Of a stretch of 36,985 bases of DNA, positions 2,284 through 31,566 are shown in pieces; position 1 is the stretch's first letter, and each line of letters starts with the position of its first letter. The stretch comes from a virus. The DNA is taken from positions 1 through 36,985 of IMG/VR virus record IMGVR_UViG_3300031576_000188. One strand, given 5' to 3'. Below the pieces are notes generated by a model, which was not told the origin of the DNA, did not search any database, and saw only the letters and a list, made by a program, of their open reading frames with translations. A program made the translations under genes and the position numbers.

Positions 2284-2625
2284 ATGTCCAGCTTCACGTT
2301 TCCAGCGCAATCTGAGCTGATTTGCGAGTCCAAGGCGTTAGGTGCGGGCGCGAGCACCTTGACGTTGATTGGGGCGGTTCCTGGCGGCGGTATCAAGCTT
2401 TACCGGCTGTGGTATTACTCGCAGACGTCGGCAGCCCAGGTGATCACGATTGCGGCTGGTTCGCAAACGATCTTGACGCTCGCGGCGTCCGTGACGGCCC
2501 ACGCCGTGATAGACACAGGCTGGCTAGACAATGGTGTTCTGCTGACGGCCGCGACCGCGCTCATTGCGACTCCGGCGGCTGCCGGGCCAGCGGGGACGTT
2601 CTTCGTCACCTACACCAGGCCTTAA
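2284..2625 (+). CDS. Small virion-like protein, unknown function
   Basis: A 113-aa protein starting at ATG 2284 after a strong GGAGGAAAG ribosome site. It is rich in Ala, Thr, Gly and Ser, with alternating hydrophobic and polar residues typical of beta-rich phage structural proteins. No cysteine cluster or enzyme motif is visible. It lies three bases before the LamG protein, so it may form part of the same surface structure. That is inferred from context. Confidence 0.6.
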   Translation: MSSFTFPAQSELICESKALGAGASTLTLIGAVPGGGIKLYRLWYYSQTSAAQVITIAAGSQTILTLAASVTAHAVIDTGWLDNGVLLTAATALIATPAAAGPAGTFFVTYTRP

Positions 2626-2627
2626 GG

Positions 2628-4112
2628 ATGGATCGTAGGCGCGTTCGTCGGGTGTTGTCACGGCCCTATGGGCATTGGTCGGGATCGAGCGGGACAAGTT
2701 ACTCGTCTGGCGTTGACTTTTCCAATGGTCTTGTGGCTTACTTGCCGTTTGCTGAAGCATCAGGTAACCGTGTAGACTTGATTGGTCCATACACATTCGT
2801 TCTGTCTGGGACAGAGCCGGGTCGATCGGCGGGATGGCCTGAAACATTCTCGCTTGGTCTGATCGCCGCAAACGACACTACTCGGTTAACGCTTGGTACT
2901 CCACCCAGCACCTTCGACTTCAATACGCAGATGACCGTTGCCGTATGGATGAATGTCTACTCGAACTACAACTACAATGAGCCGATCAATCATTACACCG
3001 GAACGGCAGCAACGAGTGCTTGGGCGCTGAGTGGTGGACAAAACGGTGAGCTGATTGGGACTGTTTACGGCAATAATGGAAACAGCTCTCTGGTGACCGG
3101 AGCCAACGGTACAATCAGAAGGAATCGTTGGCAGTTGCATTTTCTGTGGACCGATAATGTGGGAACTGGAACGGCCTACGTCCAGACATGGGACCTACAG
3201 CAGAATCCCGGGACGATCGCTTCCGATGAGGGTTTCTTGCTGGCGGATACCAAGATCAACTTTCCGGCGTCAACGTCGATCATCGTAGCGAATGTTCGTG
3301 TTGCTATCGCGAATCATACGGTGCATGGATTGATGGGTTCGGTTGCCGTTTGGAACCGGGCCTTGACAGTCTCGGAGCGTGCCGCCTACTTTGCTAGCGG
3401 ACACGGGCGCGCATATCCGTTGACGGCGGCTAATGGTCAAGTCTTGGAATCTCTGGACCCCGACGATGACATGGTTGGCGCATGGAAACTCGGCGAGGCA
3501 ACTGGAACAACCAGAGTCGATTCCGTAGGCACTAACGACTTTACGGATAATGGATCGGTACCGAAAGTCGCCGGCAAAATCGGCGACGCTGCAAGCTTCA
3601 ACGGTACAAGCCAGTATCTAAGCAAAGCTAGCCCAACAGGGATTCCGTCCGGCGACGTAGATTACTCAATCTCGTTCTGGATCAATCCGACGAACGTTAC
3701 GCAAAATACCGTGATGCCGCTGTCGTTCGGTCAAAGCGGCGTGTCCTTTAACTGGGATTTTGCCCAATTGACAACCGATCTACAGTTTCGGGTGTGGGCG
3801 GGAGGAAGTTCTGTTGGGCAAGTGACGATGAATGGCTTGGTTGCCGGTTCTTGGCAACACGTGTTCGTCCAGCATGATTCGGCCAGGAATTTACTGTTCG
3901 CGCGACTGGGGAACGGAGTTACTGTTCAAGCTGCTTCTGGAGCGCCGACGACGTCTGCGGCGCAGACATTGGTAATCGGAGGTAGTTCTGGGGGATCGAA
4001 TTTGTGGAACGGTTCGGTAGACGCCCTCATGATATTCGATGCCATTTTGAATGGCTACCAGTTTGACGCTTTATGGAACAGCGGTAACGGGGCAGAGCCG
4101 CCATTTGCTTGA
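2628..4112 (+). CDS. Double LamG (concanavalin-like) domain protein, candidate receptor-binding or surface protein
   Basis: This 494-aa protein begins at ATG 2628 (AAGG just upstream); the longer open frame reaching back to 2322 overlaps the preceding gene and is rejected. It has two LamG-type jelly-roll domains. The first runs from about residue 33 (LVAYLPF) to 240. The second runs from about 265 (VGAWKLGE … AASFNGTSQYLS) to 490. LamG_3 domains bind glycans or other cell-surface ligands and are common in phage tail adhesins. The DNA is visibly richer in A and T than its surroundings and uses different codons, which suggests acquisition from elsewhere. It lies beside the lysis genes rather than the tail fibre, as expected if the genome is circularly permuted. 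Confidence 0.75.
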   Translation: MDRRRVRRVLSRPYGHWSGSSGTSYSSGVDFSNGLVAYLPFAEASGNRVDLIGPYTFVLSGTEPGRSAGWPETFSLGLIAANDTTRLTLGTPPSTFDFNTQMTVAVWMNVYSNYNYNEPINHYTGTAATSAWALSGGQNGELIGTVYGNNGNSSLVTGANGTIRRNRWQLHFLWTDNVGTGTAYVQTWDLQQNPGTIASDEGFLLADTKINFPASTSIIVANVRVAIANHTVHGLMGSVAVWNRALTVSERAAYFASGHGRAYPLTAANGQVLESLDPDDDMVGAWKLGEATGTTRVDSVGTNDFTDNGSVPKVAGKIGDAASFNGTSQYLSKASPTGIPSGDVDYSISFWINPTNVTQNTVMPLSFGQSGVSFNWDFAQLTTDLQFRVWAGGSSVGQVTMNGLVAGSWQHVFVQHDSARNLLFARLGNGVTVQAASGAPTTSAAQTLVIGGSSGGSNLWNGSVDALMIFDAILNGYQFDALWNSGNGAEPPFA

Positions 4113-4526: not shown

Positions 4527-4991
4527 ATGCCACGCGGTGGGGCACGGCCAGGTAGTGGGCCAAAGAAAGGCTCGAAAAAGCCACAGACGCTACAGAAGGA
4601 AATGGCTCGTGAGCAGCTCAGGCAGCGCGTGTATGCTGAGATGGCCCCGCTCGTAGAAGCCCAGATTAAGCACGCCAAGGGGATCAGCTATCTTGTCTAC
4701 CGCCAGAAGCGCGGCGGCAAGTTTACCAAGGTCACAGCCGAGAACGCATCGTCCCTGTTCAAGCTGGCCAAGAAGCCGGGCGAGGACGGAGGGCTCGTTA
4801 TCGAGGTGTGGGAGAAGGAGCCGAGTGTACAGGCGTTCACCGACCTGATGAATCGAGCGATCGACAAGCCTGCAGAGACGCTGACTGCAACTGTGGGCGG
4901 GACTTTGACCGTGGAGTTGGAGAGTCGGATCAAAGCGGCTAGGGACAGACTTGCGCAGGTGAAGCATGGGCACGGCCAGCATCGCGCCTGA
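4527..4991 (+). CDS. Terminase small subunit-like protein
   Basis: A 154-aa protein with the typical basic start MPRGGARPGSGPKKGS, an Arg/Gly/Lys-rich opening often seen in phage small terminases and related DNA-binding proteins. It is followed by a helical, highly charged body. It overlaps the large subunit start by 26 bases. The small subunit recognises phage DNA and regulates the large subunit during headful packaging. No clear helix-turn-helix is readable by eye, so the call leans on the N-terminal motif and position. The ribosome site is weak. Confidence 0.7.
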   Translation: MPRGGARPGSGPKKGSKKPQTLQKEMAREQLRQRVYAEMAPLVEAQIKHAKGISYLVYRQKRGGKFTKVTAENASSLFKLAKKPGEDGGLVIEVWEKEPSVQAFTDLMNRAIDKPAETLTATVGGTLTVELESRIKAARDRLAQVKHGHGQHRA

Positions 4992-6453
4992 TCTACAGCT
5001 CGCCGACATGATGTCGGACTGCTATGCGGACCCGCTCGGGTTCGTCATGGCCGCGTTCTCTTGGGGCGAGCCAGGTGGACCGCTAAAGGACTACGACGGG
5101 CCAGATGTCTGGCAGCGTGAGTTCCTCGAGCGGATCGGGCGTGAGGTTAAGGAGCACGGTTTCGACGGAAAGATGCCGGTGACTCCCATCCGCGGTTCTG
5201 TGAGCTCAGGTCATGGTGTTGGGAAGAGCGCCATGGCTGCGTGGATCGTCTGCTGGGTGATGAGTACCCGTCCGCATGCTCAAGGTACGGTGACGGCCAA
5301 CACCTATACGCAGCTCGAGACGAAGACATGGGCTGCAGTCAAGCGCTGGATGGGCATGTGCTTGACGCGTTCGTGGTTCGTCGTGGCAGACCACCGGCTC
5401 TATCACAAGGACCACAAGGACAGTTGGTTCTGTGCTCCGCAGTCGAGTAAGGAAGAGAACAGCGAGGCGTTCGCCGGTCAGCATGCAGCGGATAGCACGA
5501 GCTTCTACATCTTTGACGAGGACTCGGGCATCTCGGACACGGTTCACGAGGTGGCCGAGGGCGGTTTGACTGACGGGGAGCCGATGATCTTCTTGTTTGG
5601 GAACTGCACCAGGAGTACCGGACACTTCCATCGGGCATGTTTTGGAGCGCAGCGGAACCTCTGGAAGCCTGTCGTAGTGGACTCGAGACAGTCCAAGTTC
5701 ACGAACAAGGAGCAAATTGAGGAATGGATTGAGCTCTACGGGGAGGACTCGGACTTTGTTCGGGTCCGGGTGCGTGGGATTCCGCCCAGGGCTTCCGATG
5801 CTCAGTTCATAGACCAGGAGCGGGTGAACGAGGCTCAGAAGCGCAAGGTAGCCACCCTATCTGACGAGCCGCTCGTGGTGGGTGTGGACATGGCCTGGGG
5901 TGGTGAGGACGACAACGTGGTGCGGTTCCGTTGCGGCCTAGACGCCAGGGCCATCCCGGCGATTCGTGTCAAGGGCGAGTTCACCCGCGATCCACAGGTC
6001 ATGGTTACGAGGTTGGCTGATGTGCTACAGCAGGAGTGGCTAGGGCGCAAGGTGCACACGATGTTCCTAGATTCGGCTGGGATCGCTGGACCAGTTGGGG
6101 CCCGGCTGCGAGCGCTTGGACACCGGAACGTCCAGGAGATCAACTTCGGTGCCGACAGTCCGGACCCTAAAGCCCGCTACATGCGAGACTACATGTGGAT
6201 GAAGATGAAGGACTGGTTGCTACGTGGAGCCATCTCGTCGGAGTCGCAGCTTGAGTCCGACTTGGTGGCGCCCGGCGTACGGCCGGATCGGCAACAGCGG
6301 GTGTGGCTCGAAAGCAAGGAAGACATGAAGAGGCGCGGGGTCGATAGCCCTGATGATGGGGATGCGCTGGCGCTGACGTTTGCGGCCCCGATAGCGGTAC
6401 CGAAGCGAGACGGGAGGCGTACGCCGATGCCGCAGAACTGGGCTTGGAGCTGA
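4966..6453 (+). CDS. Terminase large subunit (packaging ATPase-nuclease)
   Basis: This 495-aa protein pumps DNA into the procapsid and cuts it. Walker A SGHGVGKS lies near residues 80-87, and Walker B FYIFDEDSG near 180-188 with the catalytic Glu after Asp. The RNase H-like nuclease domain shows acidic residues in VVGVDMAWGG (about 305), TMFLDSAG (about 364) and SPDDGDALAL (about 459). Length is normal. The ATG at 4966 lies inside the small subunit gene, a usual arrangement. The start of NeuB follows one base after the stop, so the sugar genes are joined to the packaging operon. Confidence 0.93.
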   Translation: MGTASIAPDLQLADMMSDCYADPLGFVMAAFSWGEPGGPLKDYDGPDVWQREFLERIGREVKEHGFDGKMPVTPIRGSVSSGHGVGKSAMAAWIVCWVMSTRPHAQGTVTANTYTQLETKTWAAVKRWMGMCLTRSWFVVADHRLYHKDHKDSWFCAPQSSKEENSEAFAGQHAADSTSFYIFDEDSGISDTVHEVAEGGLTDGEPMIFLFGNCTRSTGHFHRACFGAQRNLWKPVVVDSRQSKFTNKEQIEEWIELYGEDSDFVRVRVRGIPPRASDAQFIDQERVNEAQKRKVATLSDEPLVVGVDMAWGGEDDNVVRFRCGLDARAIPAIRVKGEFTRDPQVMVTRLADVLQQEWLGRKVHTMFLDSAGIAGPVGARLRALGHRNVQEINFGADSPDPKARYMRDYMWMKMKDWLLRGAISSESQLESDLVAPGVRPDRQQRVWLESKEDMKRRGVDSPDDGDALALTFAAPIAVPKRDGRRTPMPQNWAWS

Positions 6454-6454
6454 C

Positions 6455-7300
6455 ATGGAGATTCGTGGCCGCAAGATAGGCGACGGCCAACTGAGTTACA
6501 TCGTGGCCGAGGTAGGTCAGGCGCACGATGGCAGCTATGCACTGGCCCACGCCTATATTGACGCTGTGGCTGATGCCGGTGCTGACGCGGTGAAGTTTCA
6601 GGGCCACATCGCGTCAGCCGAGAGCACGCCAGACGAGTCTTGGCGGGTAGAGCCGCGATGGAAGCAGGACGCGAGCCGGTATGCGTACTGGCACCGGATG
6701 GAGTTTCAGCCGTGGCAGTGGAAGACATTACAGGAGCACGCTCACGGCTGCGAGCTAGGGTTCATTGTCAGCCCGTTCTCGGTCGAGGCGGTGCGGATGT
6801 TGGCGTCGCTTGTGGATGCCTGGAAGGTAGCGAGCGGTGAGGTACAGAACGAGCCACTTCTCGAGGCGATCAAGGCGGACGGGAAACCTGTGATCCAGTC
6901 TGCTGGGATGTTACATATGCGGCTTGATCCGAAATGGGCTCGCTTGGCTTGCGTCAGTATCTATCCTTCTCCACCTGAGTTCATCGAGCGCCCCGATGGT
7001 CTGAGTAGACGCGAAGGCATCAGCGACCACAGCGGCACCATCTGGCCGGCGATCGTCTACGCCTCGATGGGCTGGGGCGGAATCATCGAGGTCCACATTA
7101 CGCTGGCTCGCGGGACTGGTTTACTGGACGAGACTTCGAGTATCACGATCGCTGAGCTGCGGCACCTAGTCGAGGGGGTGCGGTTCGTAGAGCGGATGGG
7201 CAAGGCTACTCTGGCTGAGCGGGAGGAACGATTGAAGCCTATGCGGGAACTGTTCCTGGACCGCTGGAAGCGGAAGCTGGAAGCGGATGCGTGCGCATAA
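6455..7300 (+). CDS. neuB: NeuB-like N-acetylneuraminate (nonulosonate) synthase, lacking the SAF domain
   Basis: NeuB condenses phosphoenolpyruvate with ManNAc (or a related hexose) to give a nine-carbon sialic acid. Family motifs are in order: VAEVGQAHDG (about 17-26), GADAVKFQ (42-49), a beta-strand VSPFS, WKVASGE (about 122-128), GKPVIQSAGM, YPSP (about 169-172), GISDHSG (about 188-194) and IIEVHITL. At 281 aa it ends after the TIM barrel. The C-terminal SAF (antifreeze-like) domain of ordinary ~345-aa NeuB is missing. The family motif L-H-C before the YP motif is L-A-C here, so one of the two metal-binding His residues is absent. The His in SDH is kept. It may therefore have changed chemistry or need a partner. 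It is followed closely by NeuC. Confidence 0.8.
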   Translation: MEIRGRKIGDGQLSYIVAEVGQAHDGSYALAHAYIDAVADAGADAVKFQGHIASAESTPDESWRVEPRWKQDASRYAYWHRMEFQPWQWKTLQEHAHGCELGFIVSPFSVEAVRMLASLVDAWKVASGEVQNEPLLEAIKADGKPVIQSAGMLHMRLDPKWARLACVSIYPSPPEFIERPDGLSRREGISDHSGTIWPAIVYASMGWGGIIEVHITLARGTGLLDETSSITIAELRHLVEGVRFVERMGKATLAEREERLKPMRELFLDRWKRKLEADACA

Positions 7301-7454
7301 GTTAAATGCCGTACAGCGCTATCTGCGCGGTGAGAACGTGCCGGAGTTCGATCTAATGCTCGCATGTAGGCGTTTTGCGGCGCTTAATTCTTCCGGCATG
7401 CGGCAACGGAAACAGGCTGTCTGGAGGAAGACATGGCAACGGAGGACAGCTTGA
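7287..7454 (+). CDS. Small overlapping ORF, 55 aa
   Basis: ATG 7287 lies in the last codons of NeuB with GGAAGCGG just upstream. The 55-aa basic frame (MRAHKLNAVQRYLRGENV…) covers the otherwise empty 132 bases before the next gene and overlaps its start by 22 bases. The composition looks protein-like. No family recognised. Confidence 0.45.
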   Translation: MRAHKLNAVQRYLRGENVPEFDLMLACRRFAALNSSGMRQRKQAVWRKTWQRRTA

Positions 7455-7651
7455 GCGGTAGCGGGCCGTTTCGAGAGCAGACGCGGAACCGCAGGGTGGA
7501 CGCTGCGATCCAGAACGAATACGCGACTAGGCAGCGAGTGGATCTGATAGAGCGGGCTTTGGCTGATGTGCTGCTGGCCGTGGATCGACAAGACAGCGTG
7601 CTGTATCGCGGCTTGGGGGGGCGGCTCCGCTGGCTGGTGACAGGCAGATGA
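7433..7651 (+). CDS. Small helical protein, unknown, 72 aa
   Basis: It starts at ATG 7433 after a strong GGAGGAAG site and ends in an ATGA overlap with NeuC. The middle (about 20-55) is a charged amphipathic helix with possible coiled-coil character, and the end is basic. It lies within the sugar cluster, but nothing in it indicates a sugar enzyme. A head-associated or regulatory small protein is possible. Confidence 0.6.
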   Translation: MATEDSLSGSGPFREQTRNRRVDAAIQNEYATRQRVDLIERALADVLLAVDRQDSVLYRGLGGRLRWLVTGR

Positions 7652-8697
7652 GTGTAGTCGTCGTCATCACGGCCAGACCGAGCTACTCTAGGGTTAAGAC
7701 CGTCCTCGAGTTCCTGCGGCGCCGGGCTGTGGATCTGCGGATCATCACAGGTGCCTCAGCGCTTGCTGTACGTCATGGCCGGGTGGTGGACCAGATTCGA
7801 GAGGACGGGTTCAAGATCGAGGCTGAGTTACCGTGTCTCGTGGAGGGCGGCCGGGTCAGAGAGTCCGTGATGACCACGGGCCTGCTCGTGAGCCTGCTCG
7901 GAGAGCAGTTCGACAGGCTACAGCCTGATATCGTGGTTACGATAGCAGACAGGCACGAGACGCTGGCAACGGCGCTCGCGGCGAGCTATCAGCACATTCC
8001 GCTCTGTCATCTGCTCGGCGGCGAGGTATCGGGGTCGATAGACGACAAGGTGAGAAATGCGGTTACGCAATTGGCGGACATCCACTGCGTGGCAACTAGT
8101 CGAGCTCGGGATCGAGTTCTGGCGCTACGTCCGGACGCTGAGGTCTATGTCACCGGCTGCCCGTCGGTCGATCTTGCAGCAGAAGCGATCGCGCAAGGGC
8201 CACTCCGAAATTCAGACTGCGTTGTGCTCCAGCATCCGGTCACCGGGGAAGCGCATCAGGCTGCGGATCAGATGCGGGCCACCATCAGAGCACTAGAGGG
8301 GATGGACGCGATGTGGTTCTGGCCAGGCGAGGATGCGGGTGCCGAGGACATGTCCAAGGTTCTACGGCTGGCTGGGAAGAAGCCGATCAGGAACAAGCCG
8401 CCGCTCGAGTTCTTGCGGATGCTGCTCGGGGCGAAGGTGCTCGTTGGAAATAGCAGTGTTGGTATGCGGGAGTGCTCATTTCTCGGGGTTCCAGCCGTGA
8501 ACATCGGGAGCCGGCAGGAGGGGCGCGAGCGAGGATCGAACGTATTGGACGTAATACACGATGCCGGCGCTATCCGAGACGCGGTGTTCGTGGCCAGTCA
8601 GATGACTCCTGCACGAAGCCGGCTGTACGGTGATGGGTGTGCCGGTGAGAAAGTTGCAGCTAAACTGATGTTTGCAAGGGTTGGGGCTGTGGTATGA
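7648..8697 (+). CDS. neuC: NeuC-like hydrolysing UDP-GlcNAc 2-epimerase
   Basis: A 349-aa enzyme of the GT-B-fold UDP-GlcNAc 2-epimerase family. It would convert UDP-GlcNAc to ManNAc with release of UDP, the first committed step to sialic acid. Seen motifs: the N-terminal strand-loop VVVVITARPSYSRV, then DIVVTIADRHETL, the NeuC signature GGEVSGSIDDKVRNAVTQLADIHC (split: GGEVSGSIDD … KVRNAVTQLAD), HPVTGE, and a C-terminal nucleotide-binding stretch GNSSVGMRECSFLGVP. Length is near the family norm. The usual R-A-D-Y opening is replaced by R-P-S-Y. Both ends overlap neighbours by four bases, so expression is tightly coupled to the structural operon. Confidence 0.88.
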   Translation: MSVVVVITARPSYSRVKTVLEFLRRRAVDLRIITGASALAVRHGRVVDQIREDGFKIEAELPCLVEGGRVRESVMTTGLLVSLLGEQFDRLQPDIVVTIADRHETLATALAASYQHIPLCHLLGGEVSGSIDDKVRNAVTQLADIHCVATSRARDRVLALRPDAEVYVTGCPSVDLAAEAIAQGPLRNSDCVVLQHPVTGEAHQAADQMRATIRALEGMDAMWFWPGEDAGAEDMSKVLRLAGKKPIRNKPPLEFLRMLLGAKVLVGNSSVGMRECSFLGVPAVNIGSRQEGRERGSNVLDVIHDAGAIRDAVFVASQMTPARSRLYGDGCAGEKVAAKLMFARVGAVV

Positions 8698-9515
8698 GCG
8701 CCATCCTGGCGTTCGATTACGAAAGCGAGCCGAAGGAGACGGTCACGAGCTGTAATAACTGCGGCTGGCAGCGCTTCGAGCCGTTTGCGGAGCGTGATCG
8801 ATACGGGTTGCCGGTGAAGACGGCGCGCTGTACTGGCTGCGGTCTCGTGTTTATCAGTCCGCGCATGGTGGACGATGGATACCGACGTTTCTACGCGGAT
8901 GGGCACTACCGGACGCTGCTCACAAAGTTCTATGGCAAGCCGATCCAGCCCGGGACGATGGAAGCGAGCCAGCGAGCGTATGCCGAGGCGTTGGCGGTCT
9001 ATCTCGAGCCGTATTTGGCGAAGCGCACCATGAGCACTGTACTCGACGTGGGCGGGTCTACTGGAGTGGTAGCCGGGACGATGGCGAGACGCTTTGGGTT
9101 AAAAGCGACGGTCCTTGATCCGGCGGACGCCGAGCTCGTGGTGGCAAAGCAGGCGGGCCTGAACGCGCTTTGCGGGACGATCGAGGAATGGAGTCCGAAC
9201 GGGTACCGCTGGGACCTGGTGCTGTTGTGCCAGACGGTGGACCATCTGCTGGACATCCGAGTGGCGCTCGCCAAGCTACGACACGCTGTGTCGGGACGAG
9301 GGCTGTTCTACATGGACATCGCTTGCTTCGACATCTTACTAGATAGGCCGAAGCTGCCGGAGCAGGTTGTGAAGGTGGACCATCCGTACTACCTGAGCCG
9401 GGTCCATGCGGAGACGTACCTGGACCGGGCCGGATTTCAGGTGGTGGCTAGATGTAACGGGCCGCTCAGATACCAGGTGGGCTACTTGTGCAAGCCTAGG
9501 GAGCAGAAAGTATGA
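8694..9515 (+). CDS. SAM-dependent methyltransferase with N-terminal zinc ribbon
   Basis: A 273-aa class I methyltransferase. The N-terminus has CNNCG (about 20) and CTGCG (about 46), a four-Cys zinc ribbon. The Rossmann motif I reads VLDVGGSTG (about 116-124), followed by the acidic end of strand 2 (VLDPADAE) and motif IV-like DLVLLCQTVDHL. This domain pair is common in O-antigen and sugar-modification clusters, where the enzyme methylates sugar nucleotides or glycans. Lying in the Neu cassette with 4-base overlaps on both sides, it may methylate the sialic acid-like sugar. That is inferred; the substrate cannot be read from the sequence. Confidence 0.8.
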   Translation: MSAILAFDYESEPKETVTSCNNCGWQRFEPFAERDRYGLPVKTARCTGCGLVFISPRMVDDGYRRFYADGHYRTLLTKFYGKPIQPGTMEASQRAYAEALAVYLEPYLAKRTMSTVLDVGGSTGVVAGTMARRFGLKATVLDPADAELVVAKQAGLNALCGTIEEWSPNGYRWDLVLLCQTVDHLLDIRVALAKLRHAVSGRGLFYMDIACFDILLDRPKLPEQVVKVDHPYYLSRVHAETYLDRAGFQVVARCNGPLRYQVGYLCKPREQKV

Positions 9516-9787
9516 GCGCTTATGTTGCTCCGACACCACGGCTGCTAGGGGGCGGCATTGGTCAACCTGCGAGCCGGCTGTTTCTCATTACCCCAAGCGA
9601 TACGACCGTCTTCGGCTTTGCAACTCGGGCCATTCGCGTGGGTGGTGCGGGTAATCTGGCTGTGCGAACCGTGGAGGGAGATGTAGTTACGATTCCAAGC
9701 GTCCTGGCCGGTGAGGTGGTTTCCGTGGAGGCTGACAAAGTCTACTCGACGAACACCACGGCGACGCTAATCATGGGGATGGCCTGA
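9512..9787 (+). CDS. Spike base protein-like (RCAP_Rcc01079 family)
   Basis: A 91-aa protein with the pattern typical of the small 'spike base' proteins of gene transfer agents and related phages: ITPSDTTVFGFATRAIRVGG at the start of the core, then AGNLAVRTVEGD, IPSVLAGEVVSV and an ending with TNTTATLIMG. In the Rhodobacter agent the homologue sits at the head spike. This suggests the present virion also bears spikes or fibres on its head or tail, close to the sugar genes. Confidence 0.65.
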   Translation: MSAYVAPTPRLLGGGIGQPASRLFLITPSDTTVFGFATRAIRVGGAGNLAVRTVEGDVVTIPSVLAGEVVSVEADKVYSTNTTATLIMGMA

Positions 9788-9788
9788 C

Positions 9789-9971
9789 ATGGATGAAAAG
9801 CTTCGCAGTGAACTGGCCACGCTTGCAGCTCAGCGTGATTGGTTGAGTAGGCAGCGTCCTGAGCAGACACCACCTGAGCAGACACCACCTGAGCAGACAC
9901 CACCTGAGCAGACACCACCACAGCCTTCCTTCTGGAAACGTCTCAAGGCTAAGCTCACAAGGAAACGCTGA
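9789..9971 (+). CDS. Small protein with PEQTP tandem repeats
   Basis: A 60-aa protein: a short charged helix (MDEKLRSELATLAAQRDWL), four PEQTP units, and a very basic tail ending KLTRKR. It shares TGATG with the next start. The proline linker between a helix and a basic tip looks like a tether. The function is unknown. Confidence 0.6.
   Translation: MDEKLRSELATLAAQRDWLSRQRPEQTPPEQTPPEQTPPEQTPPQPSFWKRLKAKLTRKR
9858..9917 (+). repeat. Four tandem 15-bp repeats encoding PEQTP
   Basis: Four identical 15-bp units (CCTGAGCAGACACCA) at 9858-9872, 9873-9887, 9888-9902 and 9903-9917. They are in frame and perfect, so recently expanded. Confidence 0.95.
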
Positions 9972-10339
9972 TGGCAAAATCTGTCCACAATGACGTACTT
10001 GACGGTGCATTCGATATCCTCGACCAGGCCGACATCATGACCGCTTGCAACGCCGAGCCCACTACCAGGACTGAGGCTATTACGACGTTCAAGCTTGCGG
10101 ACGTGGCGATGATTCCGAACACCGACTACACAAAGTCAGACGGAGACGTCAACGGTCGTAAGGTGCGTGTGGCGACAAAGTTGGCTGTGACTATTGATAC
10201 TTCGGGCACTGCTACTCATGTCGCACTTTGCGATGCCACACGGCTGCTTTACGTGACTACCTGCACGTCGCAAGTACTCACTGCTGGTGGTACAGTCGAT
10301 TTCCCGGTCTGGGACGTAGAAATCGCCGATCCGACGTAA
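9971..10339 (+). CDS. Phage structural protein of a widespread family, 122 aa
   Basis: A 122-aa protein. The opening SVHNDVLDGAFDIL, the 'NGRKVRVATK' strand and the ending YVTTCTSQVLTAGGTVDFP…WDVEIADP recall a family often found in phage and gene-transfer-agent tail or spike clusters. It is predicted beta-rich with no enzymatic motif. It is directly coupled to the preceding gene and precedes a larger structural gene, so it is likely a virion component. Confidence 0.65.
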   Translation: MAKSVHNDVLDGAFDILDQADIMTACNAEPTTRTEAITTFKLADVAMIPNTDYTKSDGDVNGRKVRVATKLAVTIDTSGTATHVALCDATRLLYVTTCTSQVLTAGGTVDFPVWDVEIADPT

Positions 10340-10349
10340 GGGAGACGAA

Positions 10350-11474
10350 ATGCAGATCATCAGGCATAGGTCGATTCACGCCGGTCGGTTGGACCGCTGG
10401 TTGGGTGCTGACCAGACCGAGCACATCTCCCGGGCGATGCTCGATTGGTACGGACCGCCGATTGCCGTTGCTGGCCTTGGAGGTGCTCCGGTATTCGCGC
10501 ATAGGGGCGGCGACTTCCGAGGGACGTTCGAGGGCGGGCACTTCGGCAACCAGGTGGACTATTGGGCCGCCCGGCTCGATGGCTTTGTTCGGGGCGTAGC
10601 TCGTCGTCAGCGTGCCCAAGTGAACGCCGGGTTCACGTCCATCTCCGACATGGTGGCCGAGGCGAGTACTGGCAAGCGGCGTGATTGGCACTGGCAGAAG
10701 GCCGGTGCGACCGGCGTTGTAGGCGTGACGAATAGCCTATGGGGCCTTGGCAACCAGCCAGCGGCCGGAGCGAACGCTTCAGCCGCACCGGGCGGTGATG
10801 TACCTACGGACGCAACGACGGGCGCGATGCTCCTCGACAACGTGAGCGCTGACACGCGTCATGTTGTCTCTGGTTATGCCTCTGGTTCGGTCGCCGGCAA
10901 TACACTGCTCATGTACGACCGCATCTTCCAGGTCAACAAGACGATGAACTCGACGGCCACCGAGGCCGTGACTGGTTTGCCTACGCGCTACCAGAGCACC
11001 ACAACGACCGCTGATGACTACATCGGAGGCAATTTCCTGTTCGTGGAGGTAGGCGGTACGGCGCTCGCTGCTACGGCTCACAACTGGACGGTCTGCTTAT
11101 ATACCGACCAGGCGAATGCGGCGTCCACGCTGCCCTCCCTTACGGGCAACTCCGCGGCGATTGTCAGACGACTCGACCACCCGATCCAACAGTGGTTCGC
11201 GCCGCTAGAGACGGGCGACGTTGGCATAAAAGCGCTGACGCAGATGCAGGCTTCGGCATTAGTTGCGACGGGCGTGATCAATTTCGTGGTCGGACACCCG
11301 CTCGTCTGGATGCCGATTCCGATCGTCAACCTGCACATCATCTATGACTTCGTCCGTGGGGCGTTTTCGCTCGTCCGCGTGTTCGATGATGCCGCCCTAG
11401 CGTTGCTCGAAGTGATGAAGCCGGCTACGACCGCTACCACGTACAATGCCGGAATCACTGTCGTACACGGGTAG
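10350..11474 (+). CDS. Virion structural protein, probably tail or head spike related
   Basis: A 374-aa protein after a GGGAGACGAA ribosome site. It is rich in Gly, Ala, Thr and aromatic residues, with beta-strand character from about residue 140 on (…LLMYDRIFQVNKTMNSTATEAV… and FLFVEVGGTALAATAHNW), and hydrophobic C-terminal strands. Similar proteins accompany the 122-aa and 100-aa neighbours in other phages, as far as I recall. No catalytic motif. It is likely part of the spike assembly encoded at 9512-11783, between the sugar genes. Confidence 0.6.
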   Translation: MQIIRHRSIHAGRLDRWLGADQTEHISRAMLDWYGPPIAVAGLGGAPVFAHRGGDFRGTFEGGHFGNQVDYWAARLDGFVRGVARRQRAQVNAGFTSISDMVAEASTGKRRDWHWQKAGATGVVGVTNSLWGLGNQPAAGANASAAPGGDVPTDATTGAMLLDNVSADTRHVVSGYASGSVAGNTLLMYDRIFQVNKTMNSTATEAVTGLPTRYQSTTTTADDYIGGNFLFVEVGGTALAATAHNWTVCLYTDQANAASTLPSLTGNSAAIVRRLDHPIQQWFAPLETGDVGIKALTQMQASALVATGVINFVVGHPLVWMPIPIVNLHIIYDFVRGAFSLVRVFDDAALALLEVMKPATTATTYNAGITVVHG

Positions 11475-11480
11475 TTCAGC

Positions 11481-11783
11481 GTGCGTCTGCTGGACTGGAA
11501 TAGTCCGTTCGGATCGGCCGAGGAGCCGCTCAAACCTGACGGTTGGACCAGTAAGGCAGATGACGGCCAGATTCCCCGCGATGTGCTTGCGCTGGTTGTG
11601 CAGGACGCAGCTCACGCGCATGCAACCGATAATCTGGTGCTTGTGCAACACAACATCCTGGCGATTCAAGACGCAACGCATGCGCACGCGGCTGACAACC
11701 TAGTACTCACGGCGAGCGCTCCTGGTGGAGGTGTGGCCATCAAGTCTAGGACCCTGAACTTGAACACGAGAATGAGGCTCTAG
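11481..11783 (+). CDS. Small spike-cluster protein with duplicated HAHA-DNLVL motif
   Basis: A 100-aa protein starting at GTG 11481 six bases after the previous stop. It has two copies of an approximately 17-residue motif: QDAAHAHATDNLVLVQ and QDATHAHAADNLVLTA. The paired H-x-H may bind metal. Proteins with one or more such repeats are common in phage tail-spike clusters. Likely structural. Confidence 0.55.
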   Translation: MRLLDWNSPFGSAEEPLKPDGWTSKADDGQIPRDVLALVVQDAAHAHATDNLVLVQHNILAIQDATHAHAADNLVLTASAPGGGVAIKSRTLNLNTRMRL

Positions 11784-11785
11784 CT

Positions 11786-12475
11786 ATGAGTGGTAGCCTG
11801 AGTACTCTCGGGCTGATTCCTGCCCGTAGCGGCTCGAAGGGTGTGCCGGGGAAGAACACCCGATTGCTTGCCGGCAAGCCGCTTCTAGCCTGGGCTGTTG
11901 GGGTGTCACGTGAAACATGCGACTGGACCTATGTCAGCACCGACGACTCGAACATCGGTCTTCTCGCGGCGCAGTACGGTGCTGGGACGATTCTGCGGCC
12001 TGCGCATCTGGCGCAAGGTGAGTCCGGCTCCATGCTGCGTACGGTCCAGCATGCTATTCGAAGCCTGTGGGACTCGAATCGTCTGAAGCCAGATGTTGTC
12101 GTGCTGTTGCAGCCCACGCAGCCGCTACGGACCGTGAGACACGTCAGAAGTGGCTTGGCGCTCCTGACCGACGAATGGGACTCTGTGACCACAGTCATCG
12201 AGGTTCCGGAGCGGTGGAGACGGGCTGAGCGCGTAGTGGATGAGCGGCTCCATCCCGAGTATGCCGGGGTGAACCGCCAGGATTTGCAGCCGACCTATGT
12301 CCGGGATGGGACGTTTTACATTTCTCGCGTCGAGGCGATCGAAGGCGGTACACTCGACGGCGACTGTCGGGCGTACGTGGTGCCGGAGTCTGAAAGTTGT
12401 AACATCGATGCCGAGGAAGACTTCCTGCGAGCCGAGCGGATGATGAAGGCGAGGTTTGCTTGTGGCCTACGATGA
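11786..12475 (+). CDS. neuA: NeuA-like CMP-sialic acid synthetase (acylneuraminate cytidylyltransferase)
   Basis: A 229-aa enzyme that would activate a nonulosonic acid with CTP to the CMP-sugar donor used by sialyltransferases. The family signature IPARSGSKGVPGKN is at residues 11-24. It is followed by LLQPTQPLR (about 107-115), the substrate region YVRDGTFYISR and the metal-binding ending CNIDAEED (about 205-212). Length matches bacterial NeuA catalytic domains. Start ATG 11786 lies two bases after the previous stop, and the portal gene starts inside its 3' end. Together with NeuB and NeuC this completes a Neu-type pathway. Confidence 0.9.
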   Translation: MSGSLSTLGLIPARSGSKGVPGKNTRLLAGKPLLAWAVGVSRETCDWTYVSTDDSNIGLLAAQYGAGTILRPAHLAQGESGSMLRTVQHAIRSLWDSNRLKPDVVVLLQPTQPLRTVRHVRSGLALLTDEWDSVTTVIEVPERWRRAERVVDERLHPEYAGVNRQDLQPTYVRDGTFYISRVEAIEGGTLDGDCRAYVVPESESCNIDAEEDFLRAERMMKARFACGLR

Positions 12476-14678
12476 GTTGAGCGACAAGAAGCTACTTGAA
12501 CGGGTCAAGGCCTGTTTCAAGCTCGCGGTTGATTCCGAGGCCAAGCAGCGGGAGCGAGAGCGCGACGACCTGTCCTTCCAGGTGCCGGAGAACCAGTGGG
12601 ACGAGGAGGCAAAGAAGCAGCGTCAAGGCGAGATCGTCGGTGGCCAGGTGGTGCCTCCGAGGCCGATGCTGAGCATCTCGCTCCTGGCTCAACCAATTCA
12701 ACTGATCCTGAACCAAGCTGCTCAGGCGAAACTCGGCATTGACCTACAGCCGGTCAGCGAGGCTGCCGACTCGGATATTGCCGACGTCAAGCAGGGGCTG
12801 TATCGGCGCATCGAACGCGATAGCAATGCTCATCAGGCTCGGCTGTGGGCCTTGGACCGGGCGATTCAGTGCGGGCGTGGATGGTACCGGGTAAACACGC
12901 AATGGGACGAGGACGGAGACGACCCACTAGATCAGGAGATCGTTGTAGAGCGGATCTTCCGCCAGGACTGCGTGTACATAGACCCTGCCGCGGTCGAGCC
13001 GGACTTCTCGGATGCCCGCTGGGGGATGATCGTCGGCTGGGTTCCGCTCGAGACGTTCCAGGAGGAGTTTCCGGGCGTGAAGGTGCCGACAGGCGACACG
13101 GAGTTCCTTGCTTGGATGAAGGAAGAGCCCGAATGGGCTCGAATGGAGGGCACGGACAAGGACAAGGCCGTCCTTGTGGGCGAGTACTTTTACAAGATCC
13201 ACGACCGTGAAACGGTCGAAGCAGTGACGGGCAAGGGCAAGAACAAACAGACGATCAAGCGCACCATGGAGCGGGTGCGGGTGAAGTACTGCAAGGTAAC
13301 CGGCCGGGACGTATTCGACCGGCAGGATTGGGCGGGCCGGTACATTCCCCTCGTCCCGGTGATTGGCCGTGAGCTCCAGCCGTTCGACGGTGAGCGTCGC
13401 TGGGTTGGGCTCGTACGCGGCGCGCGGGACGGACAGCAGTTCGCCAATTACTCGGCATCGAACGTGGTCGAGGCGATGGCACTCGAGCCCAAGGCGCCGT
13501 GGATCATGGCCGAGGGCCAGGACGAAGGCTTCGAAGACGAGTGGGATCAGGCGAACAGGCGGAACTTCCAGCGCCTGCGGTACAAGCCGACGACGGTAGA
13601 CGGGCAGTTGGCGCCGCCGCCACAACGATCCCTAACGGACGGCTCGAAGCTGACGCTGGCGCTTCAGTCGTTCTCGATGGCGAGGGAGCTGGTTCAAACA
13701 GCAACGGCCTTTCATCAGCCCTCGTTAGGCCAGTTGCCGGCACAGAGGGACGCGCAGTCGGGTCGGGCACTCCTAGCGCTTCAGCAGCAGGCGGATGCTG
13801 GGACTGGAGATTTCCTCCAGCACCTCTCGCAGATCAGTATGCGGTACGAGGCCAAGGTAGTGCTGGATCTGATTCCTGTGATCTACGACCGGCCCGGTCG
13901 GGTGACTCAGATCCTCGGAGATGAGGACGTGGCGAAGACGGTCATGCTCGGCCGCCCGTTCGTCCCTGACGCCGAGGGGATGCCGCAGGAGTTGCCGCCC
14001 CGACTGCCTGGGATGCCGCCGATGCCGATGCCGTCGGAGGCCAAGGAATATGATCTCAGTAAGGGCAAGTACGCGATCAGCGTCAACGTCGGCAAGAGCT
14101 ATCAGACACGGTTACAGGAGGGGCAGTCGGAAATCGGTGAAGTCCTCCAAGCTCAGCCGAACCTGATGCCGGCGATCGGCGCCACGTATTTCCGGTTCCG
14201 TGACTTCCCGGGCTCCAAGGAGATTGCGGACATCTTGAAGAAGATGCGGGACCAGCAGTATCCGTTCCTGCGTGACGAGAACGACCAGTCGCTGGAGGCG
14301 GTGCAAGCGCAGTTGCAACAGGCTCAGGCTCAGCTCGAGCAGATGCAGCAGCAGCTTCAGCAGGCGATGCAGGCGCTTCAGACGGAACAGGCGAAGCAGC
14401 AGGCTACGGTGCGGAAAGCACAGATTGATGCCCAGGTCAACATGCAGAAGGCGCAGGTAGACGCTGCGAGCGCTGCTCAGATCGCCCAGATCAAGCAAGA
14501 GACGGAACTCCAGATCGCTCAGATCAAGGCCGAGCTCGAGGTCGTCAAGGAGCAGGTCAAGGGCGAGCAGGCGTTGAAACAGCAGGTCGTAGGCGAGGCG
14601 CACGCGGCCGGGATGGCTGCCGCCAAGCCGCCGGATCTGACGTTCAGGGGCGAAAATGAGCTACTCCTCGATCAGTGA
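12462..14678 (+). CDS. Portal protein, P22-like
   Basis: A ~738-aa protein forms the dodecameric portal through which DNA enters and leaves the head. Size, position before scaffold and coat, the opening 'LLERVKACFKLAVDSE … ENQWDEEAKK' and the internal 'RQDCVYIDPAA…SDARWG' region fit P22 gp1-type portals. From about residue 605 to 705 it has a Gln/Ala-rich coiled coil (QAQLQQAQAQLEQMQQQL), longer than in many relatives and possibly part of the barrel. Start: GTG 12462 is chosen because GCGAGG lies seven bases upstream; TTG 12456 is the alternative. Confidence 0.85.
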   Translation: MAYDELSDKKLLERVKACFKLAVDSEAKQRERERDDLSFQVPENQWDEEAKKQRQGEIVGGQVVPPRPMLSISLLAQPIQLILNQAAQAKLGIDLQPVSEAADSDIADVKQGLYRRIERDSNAHQARLWALDRAIQCGRGWYRVNTQWDEDGDDPLDQEIVVERIFRQDCVYIDPAAVEPDFSDARWGMIVGWVPLETFQEEFPGVKVPTGDTEFLAWMKEEPEWARMEGTDKDKAVLVGEYFYKIHDRETVEAVTGKGKNKQTIKRTMERVRVKYCKVTGRDVFDRQDWAGRYIPLVPVIGRELQPFDGERRWVGLVRGARDGQQFANYSASNVVEAMALEPKAPWIMAEGQDEGFEDEWDQANRRNFQRLRYKPTTVDGQLAPPPQRSLTDGSKLTLALQSFSMARELVQTATAFHQPSLGQLPAQRDAQSGRALLALQQQADAGTGDFLQHLSQISMRYEAKVVLDLIPVIYDRPGRVTQILGDEDVAKTVMLGRPFVPDAEGMPQELPPRLPGMPPMPMPSEAKEYDLSKGKYAISVNVGKSYQTRLQEGQSEIGEVLQAQPNLMPAIGATYFRFRDFPGSKEIADILKKMRDQQYPFLRDENDQSLEAVQAQLQQAQAQLEQMQQQLQQAMQALQTEQAKQQATVRKAQIDAQVNMQKAQVDAASAAQIAQIKQETELQIAQIKAELEVVKEQVKGEQALKQQVVGEAHAAGMAAAKPPDLTFRGENELLLDQ

Positions 14679-15949: not shown

Positions 15950-17176
15950 ATGGCAAACACACTAATTACCCCAGAATGGGTTACGTTCGAAACGGCGCTG
16001 TACTTCGTGAACAGCCTGCGCGGCGTCGCGCAGTTCAATCGCGAGTACAACGACGAGTTCAAGGCGGACGGGGCCAAGGTCGGGGATACCGTAAAGATCC
16101 GACTACCCCAGCAGTTCGAAGCCTCGGATGGCGAGGCCCTGGTGATCCAGAATCTTCTGGACCGCACCGTGAACGTGATTCTCAACCGGCGTCGGCATGT
16201 CGGGTTCGGCTGGTCCAGCGCACAGGCGACCACCGACCTCGACGACATCCGGGCTCGTTACGTGATGCCAGCAGCGGAGACGCTGGCGAACGTGTACGAC
16301 CGGGTGAGCCTGGCCGATGTATACAAGAGCGTGTACAACGCGATCGGTACGCTAGGCACGACTCCGAGCGCCGCACTGACGTATCTCCAGGCGAGAGTCA
16401 AGATCCTTGACTTCGCCGGCCCCGACGAAGGGCTGGTAGGTGTCCTAGATCCTCTGGCCAACGCCACCATGGCCAACGCAACGGCGGCGCTGTTCCAGCC
16501 TCCGGCGAAGATCGCCGCCAACTGGAGCAAGGGACAGTTTGCAGACGAGCAGCTCGGCATCAGCAAGTGGTTCACTGACCAGAACATTCCGCGCTTCACG
16601 TCTGGCGCCTGTACTGCGGCTTCAACACCGCTCGTCAACGGAGCCGGTCAGACCGGCTCGAGCATCATCACGGACGGCTGGGGCGCTGCCTCGGCGCCGG
16701 TCCAGGGCGACATCGTGACGTTCGGTAGCGTCTACGCCGTCAACCCGCTGAGCAAGGAGAGCACTGGTCGGCTGCATCAGTTTGTGCTGACGGCTACTCC
16801 GACCCCCGGTACCAACATCACGCTCAGCATCTCGCCGTCGATCGTGACTTCTGGTGCGCTCCAGAACGTGACTGCAGGTCCGGCGGACAATGCGGTGGTG
16901 ACTTACTGGAGCATGGCTGCAGGCGGCACGCAGGCCGCTACGTGGAGCCCGCAGAACCTCGTGTTCCATCCCAAGGCGTTCGCTTCGGTCATGGCTGACC
17001 TAGTGATGCCGAACGGTGGCGCTCGCGGAACGCGGGTCAACTCGAAGCAGAGCAACATCGCCATGCGGTACGTAGAGCAGTTCCAGATCACTACGGATCA
17101 GAACCTCAACCGCCTGGATATCCTGTTCGGATCGGCACCGATTCAGGAACGTATGGCTTGCCGGGTGGTCGGGTAG
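15950..17176 (+). CDS. Major capsid protein, P22 coat-like
   Basis: A 408-aa coat protein. The start MANTLITPEWVTFETALYF and the order N-arm, HK97-fold core ('KVGDTVKIRLPQQF') and internal insertion domain ('TSGACTAASTPLVNGAG… NITLSISPS') match the P22 gp5 coat family. Length is close to P22 coat (about 430). Position after the scaffold and a strong TAGGAG ribosome site for high expression agree. As the most abundant surface protein it is the prime candidate target if the virion is glycosylated. Confidence 0.88.
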   Translation: MANTLITPEWVTFETALYFVNSLRGVAQFNREYNDEFKADGAKVGDTVKIRLPQQFEASDGEALVIQNLLDRTVNVILNRRRHVGFGWSSAQATTDLDDIRARYVMPAAETLANVYDRVSLADVYKSVYNAIGTLGTTPSAALTYLQARVKILDFAGPDEGLVGVLDPLANATMANATAALFQPPAKIAANWSKGQFADEQLGISKWFTDQNIPRFTSGACTAASTPLVNGAGQTGSSIITDGWGAASAPVQGDIVTFGSVYAVNPLSKESTGRLHQFVLTATPTPGTNITLSISPSIVTSGALQNVTAGPADNAVVTYWSMAAGGTQAATWSPQNLVFHPKAFASVMADLVMPNGGARGTRVNSKQSNIAMRYVEQFQITTDQNLNRLDILFGSAPIQERMACRVVG

Positions 17177-17186
17177 GAGGCCCATC

Positions 17187-18008
17187 ATGCCAGCCACAGC
17201 ATTCAACACCACCACGCTCTCCGAGGCGCTCATCAGCGAGACGAATAACTTCACGTTAGCCTCGACGACGAACATCACGGCGGGCGATCTGCTGGTTATC
17301 AGGAACGAAGTCGTCAAGGTCCAGGAGGTCCCCGTTGCCGGTCGCGTGAAGGTTATGCGCGGCGTCAGTGGCACGGAATCTCGGGCGCACGCGGCCGGAG
17401 AACGGCTGTTCATCATCGCTAACCCCGAGGATACCAAGCAGAACACCAAGGGCCAACTGGCCGTGGTCGGGGCGTCGGGTGTCTATCCCGACTACCTCTT
17501 CCCTGGTCAAGAGGCGACGGACGGTGCTGGGAACAAGTACGTCCTGTGCGAGTTCTCGGCGGTCGCTTTCAGCGGGACAACGGTGCTCATCTCGACGGAC
17601 GGTCTTTATGTGGCGGCCGTGCTGTCTTCGGGTGAGCAGGGCCCGGTCGGGATATTGGTCGAAGGCGTTTCCTCTGATCAGTACGCCTGGGTTCAGCGGT
17701 TCGGGTACAACACCTATGCTCAGGAATCTCAGGGTGACTCCGCGGTGAGTTCCTTGAGCCTGGCATGCGCGGCGTCCTCGAATAGCACGCCCGACGTCGG
17801 CCTTGCGGTCCTCGCGGCTTCGACGTTCACCTCGGCGGCGTTCACTCCTTCTCAGTTCCTCATCGAAGGGATGTTCGTCGTTGGTTCGGCGACGACGGCG
17901 ACGACGGCGGCGACTTCAGCTACTGGGGTCGCAGTGCCGGTTTTCCTGAACTACCCGTACGTCAAACGGGTGACGGTCCCGACGGTCGTCAACATCACGT
18001 CCGCCTAA
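17187..18008 (+). CDS. Structural protein after coat, possible head decoration protein
   Basis: A 273-aa Thr/Ser/Val/Gly-rich, beta-type protein. The N-terminal 75 residues (…ITAGDLLVIRNEVVKVQEVP … RGVSGTESRAHAAGERLF) resemble the small beta domain that recurs in phage tail and head accessory proteins. A low-complexity TATTAATSATG stretch lies near residue 240. It is ten bases downstream of the coat, where decoration proteins usually sit. Function inferred from position. Confidence 0.6.
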   Translation: MPATAFNTTTLSEALISETNNFTLASTTNITAGDLLVIRNEVVKVQEVPVAGRVKVMRGVSGTESRAHAAGERLFIIANPEDTKQNTKGQLAVVGASGVYPDYLFPGQEATDGAGNKYVLCEFSAVAFSGTTVLISTDGLYVAAVLSSGEQGPVGILVEGVSSDQYAWVQRFGYNTYAQESQGDSAVSSLSLACAASSNSTPDVGLAVLAASTFTSAAFTPSQFLIEGMFVVGSATTATTAATSATGVAVPVFLNYPYVKRVTVPTVVNITSA

Positions 18009-18812
18009 ATGGCTGTCAAGATGTATCAGCGGGTGGCGGTTGCGGCCAAGCCGCCATCCGCTGTCGTTCGCATCATACGCAAGGTCGCGATCTTCGGCTC
18101 TCACGGGACGTCGCTCGTGGATGCACCGTGGGATGATCCGAGTTGGGAGAAGTGGGGCCATGCGAGCGCTAAGTCTTACTACGCGAGAAACCTGGATCGC
18201 TACTTCGACCTGCATCCTCGAGCGACGTGGACGCGGAAGGGAAAGAACGGGCCGGCCTATCTCGAATGGCTGGCCAGGAACACGGTCCCGATCTACATGC
18301 AGAAGCGTCACCGGGACGTGCCGGCAAGCGTCGAGTTCCCCAGACGGCGTATCCTGGCCGAGTACGGGGAGCCGCGACCGTACTTCACGAACCAGGTGGC
18401 GTGGATGATCGCGCTAGCCTTGACCGAGGGCGTGTCCATGATCGGCTTGTGGGGGATCAACTACTCGGCAAGGTCCGAGTACGCGATGCAGCGCGGGTGT
18501 TGTGAGTACTGGCTAGGGCGGGCGGCTGCGTCCGGGGTCAGGATCGTGCTACCGGAGCAGTGCTCGTTGCTGGGGGAACCTGCGAAGCTCTATGGCTACG
18601 AGAGCCACGACGAGACGACTGGGAAGCTGGTCGAGGCGTACCGCGAGAAGCAGCGGCTGTTCCTGACCGGGGCCGTAGACGCTCCCGGGGCAGCCGTGCC
18701 GCCACCGGAGCTGCTGGCGAAGATCGCGGAAGAGGAAAAGAACCGGCCGGAATGGGCCAAGGATCCATTCGGCAGAACAGACGGTCAAGCGGTCGAAGGA
18801 GCCGAAGCATGA
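18009..18812 (+). CDS. Rossmann-like protein, candidate sialyltransferase (GT42/DUF115-like fold)
   Basis: A 267-aa protein that starts directly after the previous stop. An N-terminal strand-loop VAIFGSHGTSL (about 28-38) is followed by a WxxWG segment, DRYFDLHP, then FTNQVAWMIALALTEGVSMIGLWGINYSARSEYAMQ (split: FTNQVAWMIALA … IGLWGINYSARSEYAMQ) and a C-terminal strand GVRIVLPEQCSLL. The order 'G-x-G-x-S loop, T-[NS]-x-V-A-x-M-x-A-L-A-L, I-x-L-x-G-[IV]-[ND]-[YF]' resembles CstII-type sialyltransferases and MAF/DUF115 proteins. Relatives are common in phages as uncharacterised proteins. With NeuABC upstream, it may transfer the sugar. This is inference from motif order, not a proven homology. 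Confidence 0.45.
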   Translation: MAVKMYQRVAVAAKPPSAVVRIIRKVAIFGSHGTSLVDAPWDDPSWEKWGHASAKSYYARNLDRYFDLHPRATWTRKGKNGPAYLEWLARNTVPIYMQKRHRDVPASVEFPRRRILAEYGEPRPYFTNQVAWMIALALTEGVSMIGLWGINYSARSEYAMQRGCCEYWLGRAAASGVRIVLPEQCSLLGEPAKLYGYESHDETTGKLVEAYREKQRLFLTGAVDAPGAAVPPPELLAKIAEEEKNRPEWAKDPFGRTDGQAVEGAEA

Positions 18813-30962: not shown

Positions 30963-31051
30963 ATTAAAGAGGGGTGGAAAGCAAGAAGGTGAAGACGAAA
31001 AAGCCGTTTGTGGTGAAACCTGTCCCGCTCGCGGTGGGGCGCATGAGGTCT

Positions 31052-31090
31052 GGGTCCGGGTCTGGGGACGGGGACGGGTCTGGGTACGGG
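31052..31090 (+). repeat. (GGGNNN)7 G-quadruplex motif
   Basis: Seven runs of three or four G at exact six-base spacing (31052 to 31088). It lies in the 170-base stretch 30963-31132, which holds no confident gene. It could be coding (Ser-Gly/Asp-Gly repeats) if the downstream gene starts at GTG 30974. Confidence 0.85.
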
Positions 31091-31132
31091 TGTGAGTTTA
31101 AGTACAAATCGCAAAGGAGGAGTACTTATACG

Positions 31133-31522: not shown

Positions 31523-31566
31523 CCGAAACAGACTTCGACACGATCGTGCGTGCGCGGCAGCCATGA
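31519..31566 (+). CDS. 15-codon coupling mini-ORF
   Basis: MTETDFDTIVRARQP, with an ATGA overlap at both ends, links the zinc protein to the Dcm-like gene. It is more likely a translation-coupling leader than a working protein. Confidence 0.35.
   Translation: MTETDFDTIVRARQP

Follow-up and report, generated by a model that had tools for sequence, protein, structure and literature searches.

Nonulosonic acid synthesis genes and a candidate capsid-linked transferase in the structural block of an IMG/VR phage

We analysed a single IMG/VR virus record, IMGVR_UViG_3300031576_000188, whose full 36,985 bases are called the window here. The + strand of the window carries a phage structural block with the terminase large subunit (TerL), a P22-type portal, scaffold, coat protein, and head-closure genes. 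Inside this block lie three genes of the pathway to a nonulosonic, sialic-acid-type sugar (NulO), namely NeuB, NeuC, and NeuA, together with an S-adenosylmethionine methyltransferase (MT). Further downstream, a candidate NulO transferase follows the major capsid protein (MCP) and a candidate decoration protein. The features are listed below (ORF, open reading frame; aa, amino acids).

4966..6453, + strand: TerL (phrog_2, 4.5e-29)
6455..7300, + strand: NeuB, a compact NulO synthase lacking the SAF domain (Pfam NeuB, 2.7e-32)
7433..7651, + strand: 72-aa ORF between NeuB and NeuC (no match in family scans)
7648..8697, + strand: NeuC, hydrolysing-type UDP-N-acetylglucosamine (UDP-GlcNAc) 2-epimerase (NCBIfam NeuC_NnaA; Epimerase_2, 4e-49)
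8694..9515, + strand: MT with N-terminal Cys pairs (Methyltransf_23, 2.2e-9)
9512..11783, + strand: five-ORF insert of 91, 60 (PEQTP-repeat), 122, 374, and 100 aa, outside the conserved cassette
11786..12475, + strand: NeuA, cytidine monophosphate (CMP)-NulO synthetase (CTP_transf_3, 1.8e-14)
12456..14678, + strand: P22-type portal, exact start unsure (phrog_156, 4e-91)
15950..17176, + strand: MCP, P22 coat type (phrog_283, 7.4e-61)
17187..18008, + strand: candidate capsid decoration protein and proposed acceptor, 273 aa (position after MCP; fold matches of a low-confidence model)
18009..18812, + strand: candidate NulO transferase, GT42/Maf-like superfamily, 267 aa (family profile and predicted fold)

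An earlier interpretation made from the letters of the window (the sequence-only reading) had placed NeuB, NeuC, NeuA, and the MT between terminase and portal, and profile and PDB searches bore this out, with intact ORFs. It had also described the genes as joined by start/stop overlaps. Short overlaps are found at most junctions (-4 at 72-aa ORF/NeuC, NeuC/MT, and MT/next ORF; about -20 at NeuA/portal, where the portal start is unsure), and TerL and NeuB are separated by a gap of 1, but a 132-bp gap follows NeuB and the cassette is not overlapped throughout.

The enzyme families of NeuB, NeuC, and NeuA are near-certain from their sequences, and profile searches placed all three in the expected families rather than in unrelated ones. 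NeuB aligns with SiaC/NeuB 1xuu in the PDB search (4e-20) and keeps the phosphoenolpyruvate (PEP) and metal residues of the TIM barrel in comparison with meningococcal NeuB (E19, K47, K124, H192, and H213). The protein has 281 aa, its alignment stops at the barrel end, and the C-terminal SAF/antifreeze domain is not present. The viral NeuB relatives examined are equally SAF-less (roughly 240-290 aa) and most keep the aligned catalytic and metal residues; the SAF-less NeuB looks like a compact viral form rather than a broken gene. NeuC matches human GNE (4zht, 1.2e-43, residues 5-336), with which it has the motifs DR, GGEVSG-DD, QHPVT, and GNSS in common. NeuA matches NeuA 9ftb (1.4e-20) and keeps CTP-binding/metal motifs (PARSGSKGVPGKN, LQPTQPLR, and the C-terminal ID..ED), the first of its two metal Asp positions being aligned to Asn. 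The MT carries zinc-ribbon-like CxxC pairs ahead of the Methyltransf_23 domain and adjoins NeuC/NeuA in relatives too; its role is probably the tailoring of the sugar.

NeuC scores above the NCBIfam NeuC_NnaA cut-off (250.3 against 235.9 bits), NeuB falls below that of the N-acetylneuraminate synthase equivalog (140.9 against 399.65 bits), and the best NCBIfam match of NeuA is PseF, also below cut-off. With NeuC as the one enzyme of the three above such a cut-off, the pathway class, NulO, is firm but the identity of the sugar is not. The product may be N-acetylneuraminic acid (Neu5Ac) or another NulO. A dehydratase, aminotransferase, or NeuD gene would indicate legionaminic (Leg) or pseudaminic acid (Pse). 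Scans of the larger window genes, with the small ORFs partly scanned, found no dehydratase, no aminotransferase, and no convincing NeuD. The proposal that the phage makes its own CMP-sialic acid-like donor stands in that the predicted NeuC-NeuB-NeuA route to CMP-NulO is complete, but 'sialic acid' is too specific with NeuB and NeuA below their equivalog cut-offs.

Among NeuC relatives in IMG/VR, the order NeuB-NeuC-MT-NeuA recurs in L002-L005, followed by the portal where the contig reaches it. L006 is rearranged: the MT-NeuA pair precedes TerL, and NeuB-NeuC separates the portal from the scaffold. The cassette frames are open in other contigs at 37-64% protein identity, which therefore points to long-term selection. 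The Neu cassette belongs to the phage, within its structural block. The gene order for which the sequence-only reading suggested a survey includes a spike base between MT and NeuA. NeuB-NeuC-MT-NeuA-portal did recur, but the spike base is not conserved: L002, L004, and L005 have MT and NeuA side by side, and in L003 the two lie close together. Because the insert at 9512-11783 is lacking between MT and NeuA in the first three of these records, we regard it as a local insertion of the window phage. The sequence-only reading had called it a spike-protein cluster. Its single tail-fibre match is that of the 91-aa ORF (phrog_12296, 2.6e-14), Pfam and PHROG gave no family match for the other ORFs, and 'spike' is unsupported for the 374-aa protein. 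A spike acceptor was rejected as the leading explanation since the insert is not conserved in relatives. The insert also holds a perfect 15-bp tandem repeat of 4.1 copies (9858-9919), which encodes the PEQTP-repeat linker of the 60-aa ORF at 9789-9971.

The decisive part of the locus, which the sequence-only reading missed, is the transferase beyond the Neu block, after the MCP and the likely decoration protein. Taken alone, the protein of 18009-18812 gave no match in Pfam, PHROG, or PDB searches; matches came only with the family profile, built from 74 sequences. When this profile was searched against the PDB, GT42 sialyltransferases, namely CstII, CstI, and one further named sialyltransferase, took all of the first nine places (E 0.028-0.37). 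Individual family members weakly match Pfam CST-I (best 3.3e-4), and MptE-like (PF01973) is weakly matched by 5 of the 74 members, the window protein itself not among them (best E 2.6e-3). The AlphaFold2 model of the transferase reached a predicted local distance difference test (pLDDT) score of 84, and its first 12 Foldseek matches in the PDB are all bacterial GT42-type sialyltransferases, with a probability of 0.95-1.00, an E value of about 1e-3 or worse, template modelling (TM) scores of 0.31-0.42, and about 12% identity. G30, H69, G149, E157, and Y195 are invariant in the family, and N128 and Y158 nearly so. A CST-I family search for bacterial GT42 sequences in the phylum of G036 returned none, with controls equally silent, so the mapping of residues onto GT42 uses the local PDB alignment.

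The pfam01973 domain is the Maf_flag10 domain, which is similar to Cst-II (PMC11339370), and Maf enzymes O-link Neu5Ac or 3-deoxy-D-manno-octulosonic acid (Kdo) onto Ser/Thr (PMC7591256). From this likeness, the profile and fold rankings, and the Pfam matches of family members, we infer that 18009-18812 encodes a candidate minimal NulO transferase within the GT42/Maf-like superfamily rather than a proven member of GT42. The viral contigs L029, L049, L059, L086, and L095 each carry a second transferase-family copy elsewhere, in addition to that following the capsid genes.

In the window, the gene order is MCP, 273-aa protein, transferase. At transferase loci of unrelated phages, the directly upstream gene is usually small and Ser/Thr-rich, and in each of the ten loci tested the next gene upstream codes for a major head protein (PHROGs 371, 10, 1328, and 1005). 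L062 likewise has a major head protein two genes upstream of the transferase. Together with the P22 type of the window, the arrangement MCP-small protein-transferase spans five MCP families. In a second layout, the transferase lies within the Neu cassette (L008, L013, L017, L019, L053, and L074). L008, an unrelated phage, also has a D-2-hydroxyacid dehydrogenase gene (L008:5746-6597; PF02826, 2.2e-23) between TerL and its MT-NeuB-transferase-NeuC-NeuA block. The sequence-only reading had implied the flanked spike cluster as the target of the sugar, and this was not borne out, as the transferase follows the MCP and a likely decoration protein in unrelated phages.

Both NulO-plus and NulO-minus relatives have the N-terminal domain of the 273-aa protein. 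Its C-terminal domain was confined to records that carry the transferase, apart from L124, whose contig ends just before that gene, and the NulO-minus relatives have an unrelated C-terminus. The Ser/Thr fraction of the last 80 residues is 0.24-0.40 in intact plus members versus 0.12-0.21 in minus members. A high Ser/Thr content was not accepted by itself as proof that the protein is an acceptor, since transferase-less relatives are also fairly rich overall. Foldseek matches of the 273-aa model were mostly capsid decoration, capsid-attached, or head-fibre proteins (Pam3 capsid, HFTV1, lambda gpD, SHP, E217, T1, and the phi29 head fibre); these are weighed lightly because the model has a pLDDT of 61.

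The transferase was found in 13 of 16 NeuC-selected records longer than 10 kb (L004-L019); it was found only by whole-record search in L007 and L016, the search of L012 covered part of the record, and the 16 include two near-duplicate pairs. Conversely, NeuB exceeded the Pfam cut-off in 14 of 20 transferase-selected records (>=20 kb), while neither NeuB nor the transferase was found in any of 12 TerL-selected control relatives. The one-sided exact probability for 14/20 versus 0/12 is ~8e-5, calculated by hand with relatedness ignored. L123 and L125 have the transferase without NeuB, but both contigs stop within the portal or ahead of it, leaving the cassette region uncovered.

We consider it probable, with considerable room for doubt, that the window encodes a capsid-nonulosonylation system, in which the phage's own GT42/Maf-like enzyme O-links a NulO to a capsid decoration protein. 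NeuC would convert UDP-GlcNAc (or host-supplied UDP-diNAc-bacillosamine) to a free N-acetylmannosamine (ManNAc)-type sugar, and the SAF-less NeuB would condense it with PEP to the NulO. The MT would probably tailor the sugar and NeuA would provide the CMP-NulO donor. The 18009-18812 enzyme would then transfer the NulO to Ser/Thr of the decoration protein 17187-18008, before or during assembly. Progeny capsids would carry an acidic sugar, and the benefit could be charge, shielding, stability, or adsorption.

Several observations weigh against this explanation. L009 and L010 carry NeuC without the transferase, and 6 of the 20 transferase-selected records, all fragments, are without NeuB. The MCP tree groups the NulO-plus relatives together, and the within-lineage co-occurrence and domain pattern could be explained by one gain. 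The TerL tree, unlike the MCP tree, joins the window as sister to the NulO-minus L130 (99/97), which argues that modules have been exchanged. In view of these trees, we no longer treated the within-lineage numbers as independent evidence, and because the MCP tree allows a single gain, the independent evidence is that from unrelated phages. The AlphaFold2 model of the proposed acceptor, made with 13 sequences, is poor. Taken singly, the profile E values of 0.028-0.37 and the TM scores of 0.31-0.42 of the transferase are marginal. The CstII catalytic His188 (PMC4202792) has no evident counterpart; the matched stretch stops before it, the family shows no conserved His beyond that stretch, and H69 is the sole invariant His. 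MptE pyrophosphokinases and SteA share the superfamily of the transferase in the fold search.

These last points bear on a different identity for the 18009 protein. It could be another MptE/SteA-like enzyme, such as a nucleotide or diphosphate transferase, with its link to NeuB/C/A otherwise caused. MptE-like matches are as frequent as CST-I among family members, HPPK and SteA are in the fold list, and the GT42 base His188 is unmatched. However, two independent searches both put GT42 enzymes at the top, and in genomes the gene is most strongly associated with CMP-NulO synthesis; we judge this identity quite unlikely. The sugar might instead remodel the host surface, with a phage or host enzyme putting NulO on lipopolysaccharide (LPS), capsule, or another envelope glycan, blocking sibling re-adsorption or altering the cell. 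CstI and CstII themselves act on lipooligosaccharide (PMC4202792), and prophage genes altering host NulO are known (PMC12053666). This is unlikely, though to be taken seriously, as unrelated phages have the transferase beside their capsid genes, the C-terminal domain of its neighbour tracks it, and a cassette in the structural block fits virion assembly better than an early surface change. Nothing we found supports immune mimicry or superinfection exclusion, which the sequence-only reading had also suggested.

Decoration of tail-fibre or spike proteins with NulO would agree with the tail-fibre-like and other ORFs between MT and NeuA in the window. It is improbable given that L002, L004, and L005 are without the insert and that the recurrent neighbour of the transferase is the major capsid protein. 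Finally, the genes could be captured bacterial polysaccharide genes, a misassembly, or passing cargo without phage function, and isolated phages among 50,697 records are almost without them. Gene order and open frames are nevertheless conserved in other contigs, the genes recur in unrelated phages, and the transferase is nearly absent from cellular genomes, which makes this extremely improbable.

With either query, NeuB relatives were found in 3 of the 50,697 phage records. One of these, Moritella viscosa FPLJ01000048, was rejected because it is a bacterial surface-polysaccharide locus filed among phages. The transferase was found in a single record, L100 (Microcystis phage Mvi-Yong1342-1, PP496355.1, 9914-10717), where it lies directly upstream of the terminase small subunit and is misannotated as a 'type 11 methyltransferase'; tblastn did not detect NeuB in this phage. 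A pattern-limited scan of 84,980 prokaryote species gave four transferase loci, all in metagenome-assembled genomes (MAGs). One of them, L115 (CALBET010001043.1, Acidobacteria MAG bin), is plainly a phage contig with MCP-decoration-transferase; it shares these three genes, the portal, and the head-closure genes with the window, a weak hint at Acidobacteria as the host phylum. The near-absence from isolated-phage records and prokaryote genomes accounts for the system having escaped notice among isolates.

Phage virions are commonly regarded as bare protein. The pairing of transferase and NulO genes in many unrelated uncultured phages suggests a widespread, undescribed sugar-coating of capsids. 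That phages of at least five unrelated MCP families make their own CMP-NulO and use a minimal GT42/Maf-like transferase of a new family, placed after the MCP and a dedicated acceptor, to build a NulO-coated capsid, as a widespread and virus-specific system, is a view whose chances we put at about even. If true, this would be a new class of virion modification, spread over many uncultured phage lineages, and would assign a role to a viral protein family so far without a name. It would also turn the question of why a phage sugar-coats its capsid into a directly testable one, and it suggests that so compact a Ser/Thr NulO transferase could be studied, together with its acceptor, in laboratory E. 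coli. In agreement with the sequence-only reading, which knew of no described system of this kind, we found no description of phage NulO donor synthesis with a capsid-linked transferase in the literature searched, outside of which lay preprints and most subscription papers. Virion glycosylation by phage is known in mycobacteriophages (Freeman et al. 2023, as cited in PMC11256854). As far as we found, the novelty relative to known phage-encoded virion glycosylation lies in the phage-made NulO donor and the capsid-linked transferase, and the system is not categorically new.

Other parts of the window gave separate observations. Both record ends (1-211 and 35541-36985) lie within one 18/72-bp tandem repeat, and the record may represent a nearly complete genome that was cut there. 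On the - strand, the repeat encodes a YdcK-type beta-solenoid (GDARVYGTAQV...; Pfam B_solenoid_ydck, 4.5e-30; phrog_7964, 7e-69); the array runs past 36258 in another frame, and the gene looks frame-shifted or misassembled. A laminin-G/concanavalin-like lectin protein (2322-4112, 6.3e-19), the first part of which looks like frame read ahead of the true start, is encoded beside a lysozyme gene (1786-2250). At 31563-32474, a C-5 cytosine DNA methylase match of about 64 residues only (4.7e-15) adjoins an HNH-like ORF (30974-31522).

Among known systems, the Acinetobacter prophage genes epaA-epaB and O-acetyltransferase genes likewise act on nonulosonic acids (PMC12053666, PMC6586298). These alter host-made NulO in the host capsule, without a complete pathway or a capsid link. 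In the mycobacteriophages, going by the cited account, phage-encoded glycosyltransferases modify virion proteins, as proposed for the window. To our knowledge, those phages have no phage-made NulO donor pathway or GT42/Maf-like enzyme. Bacterial NeuBCA loci (Neu5Ac/Leg/Pse) share the three enzyme families and the route to CMP-NulO, but their partners are capsule or LPS genes, whereas the window set is phage-borne in a virion operon, has a SAF-less NeuB, and has a viral transferase together with a capsid gene as its partners. The GT42 enzymes CstI and CstII (Pfam CST-I) use CMP-NulO donors and are the best PDB matches of the phage protein by both profile and fold, but the phage protein has ~12% identity, TM scores of 0.31-0.42, and an unmatched His188, and lies outside a surface-glycan locus. 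The Maf flagellin O-glycosyltransferases (Maf_flag10/pfam01973) have a superfamily fold related to Cst-II. They O-link NulO in the cytoplasm to Ser/Thr of a surface protein that self-assembles, and we propose this mechanism for the phage by analogy. Maf enzymes have three domains and act on flagellin, whereas the phage protein is one short domain with the capsid decoration protein as its proposed acceptor.

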